DNA from: a virus
Direction: 5' to 3' (one strand)
Virus record (IMG/VR): IMGVR_UViG_3300020180_000060
Span: 1 to 36,432 of that record
Length of the DNA: 36,432 nucleotides
The position numbers and the translations under genes were made by a program. Positions 1-36,432 of this stretch are shown piece by piece (positions within the stretch are counted from its first letter, which is position 1; every line of letters starts with the position of its first letter). The notes beneath the pieces are model-generated. The model made no database searches. It saw only the letters and a list, made by a program, of their open reading frames with translations, and had not been told where the DNA came from.

Positions 1-149
1 GCAATGGATCAGGCTACGGCCACGGCTACGGCAACTGCTATGGCTTCGGCTACGGCCACGGCAGCGGCTATGGCCACGGCAACGGCTCAGGCGACGGCAA
101 CGGCTCAGGCTCAGGCTCAGGCTCAGTAAACGGCTCAGGCCACGGATGA
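1..149 (+). CDS. Gly-X repeat protein, 3' end only
   Basis: The reading frame entered at base 3 is open and ends at TGA 147-149. It encodes 48 visible residues in which nearly every second residue is Gly, alternating with Tyr, His, Asn, Ser, Asp, Phe or Cys. Gly is almost always the codon GGC. The C-terminus GSGSVNGSGHG closely matches the end of the Gly-X gene at 36023-36268, which fixes the frame; the other frames would give Ala-X or Arg-X repeats. The 5' part lies outside the window. No enzyme motif, signal peptide or hydrophobic segment is visible, so the protein is likely disordered or fibrous. Function unknown. It could be non-coding repeat DNA, but the conserved frame and stop argue for a gene. 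Confidence 0.6.
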   Translation, partial: NGSGYGHGYGNCYGFGYGHGSGYGHGNGSGDGNGSGSGSGSVNGSGHG

Positions 150-157
150 TTCTTCAA

Positions 158-200
158 CTGAGCGCGAAGGGGCCGCCTTGTAGCCCCAACCTTTTTGGAG
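158..200 (+). promoter_or_regulatory. Attenuator-like leader, copy 1
   Basis: Bases 158-187 are identical to 35678-35707. The stem GGGGC (169-173)/GCCCC (183-187) encloses a 9-nt loop and is followed by a five-T run at 192-196, which resembles an intrinsic terminator. The Shine-Dalgarno GGAG (197-200) of the next gene follows at once. The CCTT in the loop could also pair with AAGG on its 5' side. It may terminate transcripts leaving the Gly-X array or attenuate the downstream gene; which of the two is inference. Confidence 0.5.
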
Positions 201-207
201 ATGAGCA

Positions 208-2709: not shown

Positions 2710-3231
2710 ATGAGTAATCAGAATTTAATAGGACATCCCATCTGCACAGTGTGTCTATGGCCTGTACCGGCCCCTGTATCCTTCAGCGAATGGGATTCCC
2801 GTCTGCCCACGCACTGTCCCACCTGCGACCCTGTTAAGCCTCCAGCTCCAGCCCCAGAGGATACCGAGCTAGAGAAGCGAGCGGAAGAGTACGGCGTATT
2901 CGTCGCGCAGCCTATAATGCGATCAATGTACAGTTGTTCGCGGGGGGAACTCACTGCGCTGCTGGCGTTTGCTTTTAAAACTGGAGCACTCTCGGAACGC
3001 GAGCTGGTCGCCCACAATTTTACAGTTCTCCGCGAGCTTACTGAGCTTGCCACTACAGATAGAAAATGGCACCGGGCAGAATCTCGAAGGTTGCGCGATG
3101 CTTTGACGGATGCTCATTATGACCTGGAGCGAATCGCAACGGCGGATTGGGGCGTTGAGCAAATTCGCATGGCGGCGGAAGCGGGTGCATCGAATGCAAT
3201 CCGCGCACTCAGAGAATGGAAGTCGGAATGA
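2710..3231 (+). CDS. Zinc-ribbon plus TELEKRA-motif protein, 173 aa
   Basis: The N-terminus has two cysteine pairs, CTVC (near 13-16) and CPTC (near 37-40), typical of a four-Cys zinc ribbon. A Pro-rich linker follows, then DTELEKRAEEY and a second shared motif TGALSEREL, both matching the upstream gene. The C-terminal half is helical and charged. An AAGGAG site just before junction copy 3 gives a strong ribosome binding site. It ends in WKSE, encoded by junction copy 4. It looks like a mosaic of a zinc ribbon and the TELEKRA module. Role unknown. Confidence 0.65.
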   Translation: MSNQNLIGHPICTVCLWPVPAPVSFSEWDSRLPTHCPTCDPVKPPAPAPEDTELEKRAEEYGVFVAQPIMRSMYSCSRGELTALLAFAFKTGALSERELVAHNFTVLRELTELATTDRKWHRAESRRLRDALTDAHYDLERIATADWGVEQIRMAAEAGASNAIRALREWKSE

Positions 3232-30150: not shown

Positions 30151-30720
30151 ATGATGCAACCAAAATGGTTTACTCAGTCGCTTGATCAGAACTCATTCGC
30201 CCCGCTTTACCGTCGATACCCAGGACAGATTGACTCCCAGCGAGCCTATCTAGTGATTCGTCCGACGGGCGAACCGGACGTAGTTTTTGAAATTGATGCG
30301 GAAATCGGCAGCGGGGTAACGGCGGACGTTTACCGCAACCGCGAGCTACGCTTTCGGGTGTCGTCGCAGCTGACCCACGAGGGTTGCATGTCGATCATTG
30401 AGTGCCCAAAAGTACAGTCACTCATCGAGCGCGTGATCGCGGGTCATAGCATTGACCCTGCCGATTGCGAGCGGTTCGGCGTGCTGACAGAAAATGCGCG
30501 CAAGGCGAGCGAAGTTCTACAGGACATGTTGGAGCACAATTTATGGACTGACCGGCGCGACGGCTTCTTTGCAGAAGTTTGGACGGTCGGCGAATGGATG
30601 CGGGACTGCATCGGCGACCCATATGGCACGGCGGAAAGTATTCGCTTAAACGCGGAGACCGATGGCGTGCATATCGACGGCGACATTGCCCAGTATTTGG
30701 CCGATCGGGGTGCAGCATGA
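30151..30720 (+). CDS. Uncharacterized early protein with MQPKWF start, 189 aa
   Basis: Unrecognised. The first residues MMQPKWFTQ are nearly the same as MMQPKWFIQ of the next gene, and the DNA around both starts is almost identical, suggesting a duplicated or shuffled 5' end. The middle is beta-rich, the rest helical and acidic. AGGAG is near 30138. It ends at TGA 30718-30720 overlapping ATG 30717. Possible accessory or anti-defence protein; not supported further. Confidence 0.65.
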   Translation: MMQPKWFTQSLDQNSFAPLYRRYPGQIDSQRAYLVIRPTGEPDVVFEIDAEIGSGVTADVYRNRELRFRVSSQLTHEGCMSIIECPKVQSLIERVIAGHSIDPADCERFGVLTENARKASEVLQDMLEHNLWTDRRDGFFAEVWTVGEWMRDCIGDPYGTAESIRLNAETDGVHIDGDIAQYLADRGAA

Positions 30721-30983
30721 TGCAACCAAAGTGGTTCATTCAGGTCACCGACAACAGCCTTCACGGCTACTACACGCTCGAGGTTCTGCTCATGGATCTC
30801 GCGCTGCACAGGCATGAGCAGGTCACAGTTTTTGAACTCGAGACGCGCTCGTACACGACCCGCTACCAAGTGACGACCGAGGCGGCACTCCGTAAACAGG
30901 CCGAGGAACGGGTTTTAGAGACTATTCGCCTTGGCCAGAGCAAGACCGAGGACCGCGAGCGGTACGGGCGGGAAACGTCATGA
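30717..30983 (+). CDS. MQPKWF-start paralog, 88 aa
   Basis: Starts at ATG 30717 (ATGATG) by overlap with the previous stop. It shares the initial MMQPKWF(T/I)Q with the gene at 30151 and then diverges. The body is charged, mixed alpha/beta. No known domain seen. Its TGA overlaps the next ATG (30980). The shared 5' end with the preceding gene is the notable point. Confidence 0.6.
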   Translation: MMQPKWFIQVTDNSLHGYYTLEVLLMDLALHRHEQVTVFELETRSYTTRYQVTTEAALRKQAEERVLETIRLGQSKTEDRERYGRETS

Positions 30984-35677: not shown

Positions 35678-35720
35678 CTGAGCGCGAAGGGGCCGCCTTG
35701 TAGCCCCGCTTTTTAAGGAG
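35678..35720 (+). promoter_or_regulatory. Attenuator-like leader, copy 2
   Basis: Bases 35678-35707 repeat 158-187 exactly. Stem GGGGC (35689-35693)/GCCCC (35703-35707), five T's at 35710-35714, then AAGGAG at 35715-35720 just before the DUF6948-like gene. The loop CCTT could pair with the SD AAGG as an alternative fold, so both termination and ribosome-site masking are possible. Confidence 0.5.
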
Positions 35721-35726
35721 ATGGAC

Positions 35727-36035
35727 ATGAAAAAGAAACTCAGTAAAACGAAACTAAAATACGTGATCGTGCGGACATACTCGGCGGGAGTGTTCGCAGG
35801 ACTCCTAATCAGCCGCAAGGGTAAAGAAGTCGTGATGAAAGATGCGCGTCGTCTTTGGTATTGGAAAGGCGCCGCGACACTCAGTCAACTTGCAAACGAC
35901 GGCGTGAAATGTCCGGACGAGTGTAAATTTCCTGCACCCGTGGCGCGTATCGAACTCACCGAGGCGATCGAAATTCTTGATGTGACCCCACAGGCAAGGA
36001 AAATAATTAAAGGCGTCCCGGCATGGAGCGCGTGA
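35727..36035 (+). CDS. DUF6948-like protein, 102 aa
   Basis: The sequence KYVIVRTYSAGVFAGLLIS, then KEVVMKDARRLWYWKGAATL, CPDECKFPAPV and a C-terminal IEILDVTPQARK...GVPAW match what I recall of a conserved phage/bacterial protein family annotated DUF6948 (recognition from memory). Function is unknown. ATG 35727 fits the AAGGAG (35715-35720, 6 nt spacing) better than ATG 35721. It lies directly after the second leader copy, and its end overlaps the following Gly-X gene start, so the two are coupled. Confidence 0.7.
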   Translation: MKKKLSKTKLKYVIVRTYSAGVFAGLLISRKGKEVVMKDARRLWYWKGAATLSQLANDGVKCPDECKFPAPVARIELTEAIEILDVTPQARKIIKGVPAWSA

Positions 36036-36268
36036 GCGAAAGCCACGGCAGCGGCTCGGGCTTCGGCGACGGCAACGGCTCAAGCTCATTAAACGGCTCG
36101 GGCTACGGCGAAGGCCACGGCTGCGGAGCTGGCTCAGAATCCGGCCACGGCGACGGCTCGGGCGTGGGCGTAGCCTCGGGCTTAGGCTTCGGCGAGGGCT
36201 ACGACTCAGGCACAGGCTGCGGCTACGGATACGGCTCAGGCTCAGTAAACGGCTCAGGCGGCGGATGA
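36023..36268 (+). CDS. Gly-X repeat protein, complete copy, 81 aa
   Basis: ATG 36023 overlaps the DUF6948-like gene by 13 nt; a GTG at 36032 (GTGA overlap with its stop) is an alternative. After a short N-terminus (ERVSESH) the sequence alternates Gly with Ser, Tyr, His, Asp, Asn, Glu, Phe and Cys, with few interruptions. It ends GSGSVNGSGGG, almost the same as the array gene at 1-149. Predicted disordered/low-complexity; GGC is the dominant Gly codon. Function unknown; it may condense or aggregate. Confidence 0.6.
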   Translation: MERVSESHGSGSGFGDGNGSSSLNGSGYGEGHGCGAGSESGHGDGSGVGVASGLGFGEGYDSGTGCGYGYGSGSVNGSGGG

Positions 36269-36294
36269 CTCTTCAACCTGGCGAAGGGGATAGC

Positions 36295-36432
36295 ATGAAC
36301 GAAGGACAGGGCGACGGCTCAGGCTGCGGCACGGGCTTCGGCAACGGCGATGGCTCGGGCTACGGCTATGGCCACGGCAACGGCGTCGGCTATGGCAACG
36401 GCTCGGGCGGCGGCGGCGGATACGTCAACGGC
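36295..36432 (+). CDS. Gly-X repeat protein, 5' end only
   Basis: ATG 36295 begins a 46-codon open frame to the window edge: MNEGQGDGSGCGTG..., again alternating Gly with Ser, Tyr, Asp, Asn, Cys, Val and His. Upstream GAAGGGG (36282-36288) is a possible ribosome site, and the spacer after the previous Gly-X gene resembles the one after 149. Truncated by the end of the window; the continuation is probably the start of the window in another assembly frame, but direct joining breaks the frame. Confidence 0.55.
   Translation, partial: MNEGQGDGSGCGTGFGNGDGSGYGYGHGNGVGYGNGSGGGGGYVNG

Follow-up and report, generated by a model that had tools for sequence, protein, structure and literature searches.

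Phage DUF6948 proteins with a predicted Sm fold, and two related families, are paired with a gene for an acidic alternating-glycine protein

Results

Gene layout of the window

The window, that is the whole stretch of DNA analysed, is an entire IMG/VR record of 36,432 bp from a tailed phage (terminase, portal-type and SU10-like capsid matches). At its right end, on the plus strand like the Gly-X segments and the 27-nt and 46-nt repeats described below, lies a gene of the DUF6948 family (35721..36035, 104 aa), which encodes a predicted Sm/LSm-fold protein. An earlier sequence-only reading had called this gene DUF6948-like, and comparison with Pfam placed it in PF22253 (E 3e-31; score 107.8 bits, gathering cutoff 27). 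Next comes a complete (Gly-X)n gene (36023..36268) for an acidic low-complexity partner of 81 aa, 40% of it glycine; most relatives have it at this position and in this frame. The two genes overlap by 13 nt (36023..36035), as they do in most relatives, and the conserved Gly-X start lies within this overlap (...gcATGGagc...).

Two partial Gly-X frames occupy the ends of the record. The 5' portion of a second (Gly-X)n gene (36295..36432, 46 open codons beginning MNEGQGDGSG) runs off the right end, and a 3' portion (3..149, NGSGYGHG...SGSVNGSGHG*) enters from the left. Because the two frames join in frame given a 2-nt overlap, and because in 16 of 80 related contigs the end likewise falls within a Gly-X ORF, the two portions are likely a single gene cut by assembly. 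The sequence-only reading had counted at least three Gly-X genes; the three segments stand, and they more likely represent two genes. A homolog of the gene at 208-570 was sought elsewhere as a test of genome circularity, and none was present in 35 related records.

The 3' ends of the two genes have an identical 27-nt stretch in common, at 36233..36259, where it encodes the C-terminal GSGSVNGSG, and at 114..140. The identity had been noticed over the shorter interval 114-131 and 36233-36250, and its full extent points to a gene duplication. Like the window, loci L007, L080 and L079, among others, have two to four Gly-X ORFs close to a single DUF6948 gene. A six-frame scan of the window found five runs of at least five restricted Gly-X units, all within the three Gly-X segments, and only two strict G-nonG runs elsewhere, of four units each, which argues against a chance origin of the Gly-X runs.

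A 46-nt direct repeat (158..203 and 35678..35723) is 87% identical between its copies, 28 nt of it perfectly. The copy before the DUF6948 gene contains a hairpin (GGGGC..GCCCC), a T-run and a GGAG ribosome-binding site. It had been described as a duplicated leader of the Gly-X genes. The repeat is real, but its second copy precedes the unrelated gene at 208-570, and the repeat is thus not specific to Gly-X genes. The terminator scan did not call it as an intrinsic terminator, and the predicted stability of its hairpin was no better than that of shuffled sequences.

Two other repeated features were observed in the window. An 18-nt element, GAGGGGAAGTCGGAATGA, occurs in five copies of 83-100% identity (1668-1685, 1922-1939, 2242-2259, 2696-2713 and 3214-3231). 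At several copies it encodes a common C-terminal peptide, ..GKSE, and the stop and start codons at which one gene overlaps the next lie within it; it appears to serve small genes as a recurring cassette for translational coupling. Adjoining ORFs have the start segment ATGATGCAACCAAA.TGGTT in common at 30151-30177 and 30717-30743, suggesting that they are tandem paralogs.

Pairing of DUF6948 and Gly-X genes across phages

With the window protein as query, DUF6948 loci were collected from viral contigs (80), genomes (23) and annotated phages (16 records, 8 of them analysed). Two more scans with divergent DUF6948 queries added 80 loci of an Iodobacter type and 36 of a gut type. Of these 227 loci, four lie on contigs that end too early, leaving 223 assessable. 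A Gly-X run of at least five units lay within 150 nt downstream of DUF6948 in 207 of the 223 (93%, strict criterion). By a looser criterion, 8 of the 16 misses carry degenerate or short repeats, so that about 96% of loci are paired and about 4% are without a partner. Redundancy among the loci includes about 20 near-identical Neisseria-type prophages and about 8 representatives of one phage type; among non-redundant loci of the viral-contig, genome and annotated-phage sets, 84 of 92 were Gly-X-positive. As background, Gly-X runs were found at 201 loci in the 145 kb just downstream of DUF6948, compared to 12 in the remaining 718 kb, most of these being nearby extra copies. Natural exceptions, DUF6948 relatives with no adjoining Gly-X gene, were seen at L008, L043, L111, L192, L194, L208 and L213.

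The pair is present in the cultured phages Pectobacterium phage Taid, Iodobacter phage PhiPLPE, Chlorobiaceae phage CV-1-33 and Vibrio phage IKEMa6-1, as well as in Neisseria prophages. In PhiPLPE the Gly-X gene carries no annotation.

The reciprocal search used a 20-nt Gly-X DNA word picked independently of DUF6948, which matched at least 120 contig stretches. DUF6948 lay just upstream of 83 of the 99 arrays with enough upstream sequence. The neighbour association that the sequence-only reading had put forward is true, and it is stronger than was claimed. Twelve of the remaining 16 arrays were preceded by a member of one of two unnamed families ('IVVLDRGFVYVG...WGTTKGLGEL' and 'RAVVVVDRGWIFAGDV...'), whose genes overlap or abut the Gly-X gene. 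Neither family matched Pfam, and their representatives had no match in PHROG. In separate searches, Gly-X followed the second family at 73 of 78 and the third at all 78 assessable loci. Profile-profile comparison linked DUF6948 to family 2 (88%, E 3e-6) and family 2 to family 3 (98%, E 8e-13), making these two abundant unnamed phage families (L353-L432 and L433-L512) profile relatives of DUF6948. The system is larger than first noted: three related families have a near-obligate Gly-X partner.

Start codon, composition and turnover of the Gly-X gene

At window-type loci the first 13 nt of the Gly-X gene are mostly also the last 13 nt of the DUF6948 gene, stop codon included. Its ATG takes the A from the third position of one codon and the TG from a conserved Trp codon. 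The base before this terminal TGG was A in 72 of 84 cases, compared to 198 of 656 where these amino acids occur elsewhere in the genes (Fisher 5e-23), which shows selection on the Gly-X start codon. The genes overlap in another frame in gammaproteobacterial phages and by ATGA in Neisseria-type prophages; since the overlap persists while its frame and details differ, the coupling has been kept. Translational coupling of DUF6948 to the Gly-X gene, an early proposal for this locus, is thus well supported.

Among 2297 X residues from 83 arrays, Ser (36%), Tyr (27%) and Asp (22%) predominated. Ala was seen 18 times against 207 expected from independent codon positions. His and Cys, which arise by transitions from the Tyr codon, each made up 1% or less, indicating that mutation bias alone does not explain the X alphabet. 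This alphabet was much alike in arrays built on GGC, GGG or GGT, and the order of X residues was indistinguishable from random (mean z -0.34). An apparent ban on GGT-NNT codon pairs was dismissed (3 seen, 4.2 expected). A diversity-generating retroelement, whose products the AAY-type codons resemble, was considered as a source of the X variation, but Tyr-rich arrays can be explained without one.

Any one array was nearly uniform in its Gly codon and in the third base of its X codons (about 96-97%). Array codons were unrelated to the phage's own usage; arrays of low-GC phages used GGC at 71%, compared to 20% in the neighbouring gene. Array length shifts in 6-nt steps, consistent with slippage, as had been suggested for the array, or with recombination. 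The simplest reading is that arrays expand and contract fast, homogenising synonymous sites, while selection holds the amino-acid mixture.

The near-uniform codons leave room for an RNA-level role. TRAP binds spaced RNA triplets, and the Sm-like ring could in a similar way bind the 6-nt-periodic Gly-X mRNA, the repeat RNA being the functional target of an autoregulatory loop. Codon uniformity and the preference for GGC even in low-GC phages would fit such a loop. However, concerted expansion explains the uniform codons, phages differ in the RNA word (GGC, GGG, GGT or GGA; NNC or NNT) but keep the S/Y/D protein alphabet, selection acts on the Gly-X start codon, and in some proteins the reading frame continues from the repeat into another domain. 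We consider this loop very unlikely. That the arrays are young and internally homogenised would also fit a selfish repeat expanding behind DUF6948 to no function. This is scarcely credible for an array retained in three divergent families at about 95% of loci, with a selected start codon and an S/Y/D mixture kept even though transitions in Tyr codons would yield His and Cys. Gly-X is a real, selected protein gene.

Turnover was most visible in the Neisseria-type prophages (L167-L187), where 21 loci carried 17 distinct Gly-X alleles and 20 DUF6948 genes were at least 98.6% identical. Most alleles encoded 91-97 aa in two-residue steps, one encoded 129 aa, and a few were truncated. The L167 DUF6948 protein matched N. 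gonorrhoeae at 100%; two gonococcal PLSDB 'plasmid' records are about 2.17 Mb long and are evidently chromosomes. The shortest Gly-X proteins had only 23 aa in total.

Modularity and genomic neighbours

A motif search of the collected loci saw no in-frame fusion of the Sm-like protein with Gly-X, and thus no Hfq-like tail in cis. Other domains do follow the repeat. In gut-type phages the Gly-X run forms the N-terminal portion of a larger protein with the conserved domain HH.LTGSC..GR; this domain of about 140 aa (AHGETL...WHH.LTGSC..GR...YGG) stands behind Gly-X at L110:4333-4779, L112:2366-2833, L113-L116 and many of L197-L232, and it had no match in Pfam. A 30% relative occurs in Riemerella phages, where it is annotated 'ribonuclease inhibitor'. 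A second type of domain (C..GTLHAT..P..W.G.RWWIVAL) follows the repeat at L243, L276, L296, L299, L319, L326, L331 and L429, one member having a sub-threshold match to DUF7666 (E 0.033). Since different domains stand behind Gly-X runs, the repeat is the common part, able to carry cargo domains.

The pair is mobile between unrelated phages, with hosts ranging from clostridia to proteobacteria. Its upstream neighbours were diverse and no conserved third gene was found near it, the next commonest being ERF at 9 of about 91 loci. Of the few neighbours to which a name could be given, most were DNA-metabolism genes (Sak4, SSB, helicase, primase, RusA, RecT and methyltransferases), and from this context we infer that the pair is expressed early in infection.

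The neighbours bear on two roles that had been raised for the locus, at the virion surface and in defence. Alternating glycine has a superficial likeness to silk and polyglycine motifs, as is generally known, which would suit a virion surface or silk-like structural protein. Gly-X is instead acidic and Tyr-rich with Ala nearly absent, its partner is a predicted Sm-fold protein, and the nameable upstream genes lean to DNA metabolism, though terminases do occur (2 of 110). The virion proposal found no support, and a structural role is highly improbable. As to defence, no defence family was matched: PADLOC gave no match for five module proteins at E 0.1, and an NCBIfam search returned nothing useful. 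PADLOC covers host defences rather than phage inhibitors, and the pair could still act in counter-defence, blocking or titrating a host defence or RNA-processing factor with the array as a fast-changing decoy or binding surface. The early-gene context, the mobility and the contrast between Gly-X and DUF6948 variation in the Neisseria-type prophages would fit. We nevertheless regard counter-defence as unlikely; a varying target would not be expected to leave one simple composition in hosts from clostridia to proteobacteria.

Predicted Sm fold of the partner

The AlphaFold2 model of DUF6948 (66 sequences, pLDDT 93.3) was compared with the PDB, and the 50 matches listed were all Sm/LSm structures (best E 2.3e-3, Z up to 7.7). 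For a model of the second family (58 sequences, pLDDT 93.6), nearly all matches listed were likewise Sm/LSm (Z up to 8.7), the exceptions being TIP60 designed particles and NatC subunits. The third family is tied to the Sm-like group by profile. Z values of 7.7-8.7 are middling. Non-Sm small barrels are common in the PDB, and the uniformity of the Sm/LSm matches therefore outweighs the middling scores. This fold had been missed by the sequence-only reading.

The DUF6948 profile found nothing significant among PDB chain sequences (best E 0.78), and the Pfam search with the DUF6948 gene returned only DUF6948 and no Sm/LSm family. The Sm2 signature, an Arg-Gly in loop L5, is absent; the DUF6948 consensus reads ELTEAIEIL in this region. 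In the model, the most conserved residues (R18, T19, S21, A22, G23, R43, W48 and G61) are found near loops L2 and L4. The usual RNA-binding loops of Sm proteins are L3 and L5, and the conserved contact face of DUF6948 is thus perhaps not the usual RNA site. For these three reasons, the lack of a significant PDB sequence match, the missing Arg-Gly and the displaced conserved face, we label DUF6948 'Sm-fold, predicted', a five-stranded small barrel by its model, rather than a proven Sm/LSm member. The median net charge was +2 for DUF6948 and -8 for Gly-X.

Discussion

No paper naming DUF6948 or alternating-glycine phage proteins was found in the literature searched, and a two-gene phage system with a Gly-X partner is not described there. 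We tentatively favour, at somewhat less than an even chance, a model in which an Sm-like nucleic-acid-binding ring receives its disordered, acidic, Gly-rich tail from a second gene, the tail tuning binding, clustering rings, or both. The pair would be a mobile early-gene module of phages whose two proteins are produced together. DUF6948, the small Sm/LSm-fold protein, would form a ring and bind nucleic acid, and the disordered Gly-Ser/Tyr/Asp repeat protein, started inside the first gene, would act on the ring in trans. Its tyrosines may bring rings together, and in the two lineages with an extra domain behind the repeat, the repeat may tether that domain to the ring. Ring formation, nucleic-acid binding and the action of Gly-X in trans are inferred by analogy with known systems.

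The closest of these is Hfq. In E. coli, the acidic C-terminal tail of Hfq binds the Sm core, where it mimics and competes with nucleic acid (PMC5606850), and in A. baumannii Gly-rich GGFGGQ repeats of Hfq affect RNA binding and autoregulation (PMC11617691). Gly-X may do for the phage ring what this tail does for Hfq, competing with or releasing nucleic acid. Both systems would combine an Sm-type fold, predicted in the phages, with an acidic, Gly-rich, presumably disordered segment. In contrast to Hfq, the phages encode the segment in a gene of its own that overlaps the first; its Gly-X alternation is strict, its length is hypervariable and it was never seen fused, and the phage-borne Sm-like protein has no Sm2 RG signature. 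The absence of fusions weakens the model of a ring with a tail in trans, since a segment that served only as a tail would be expected to occur fused in some phages. The folds of DUF6948 (Z 7.0) and of the second family (Z 7.7) also matched 3by7, an Sm-like protein of an uncultured marine organism, but with only 14-19% identity over the aligned part.

A second comparison is with eukaryotic LSm4 and Sm B/D1/D3, which have RG-rich tails linked to RNP bodies. The phage pair would share with them an Sm fold and Gly-rich low-complexity sequence; their tails, however, are basic RG repeats in cis, whereas the phage sequence is acidic G-S/Y/D in trans. A condensate, already proposed for this locus, is compatible with the composition of Gly-X. 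An Sm-fold ring and a fast-evolving Gly-S/Y/D polymer from a separate gene could together condense into a nucleoprotein body by which phage DNA or RNA is organised in early infection, and into which the polymer draws extra domains in some lineages; we hold this to be possible but doubtful. Rather unlikely, in our estimate, is a version in which Gly-X is the scaffold, a sticker-and-spacer polymer (Tyr as stickers; Gly, Ser and Asp as spacers) seeded by the multivalent ring into a compartment on phage DNA or RNA. The S/Y/D mixture kept in every lineage, the random order of X, a partner with the predicted fold of ring-forming proteins and optional C-terminal domains that could be recruited would all suit such a scaffold, but proteins as short as 23 aa would make a weak one.

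The favoured model of a ring with a tail in trans lends itself to experiment, as the Sm-like and Gly-X parts are encoded by different genes, each of which can be deleted, swapped or recoded on its own. DUF6948 gains a testable hypothesis. Three phage families, of which two have no entry in Pfam, come together in a single group with a predicted Sm fold and a near-obligate low-complexity partner, in phages of many bacterial phyla. If the condensate reading were true, the pair would be a prokaryotic-virus counterpart of Sm/LSm bodies. The pair is also a natural setting in which to ask why Sm-type rings gain glycine-rich disordered partners.
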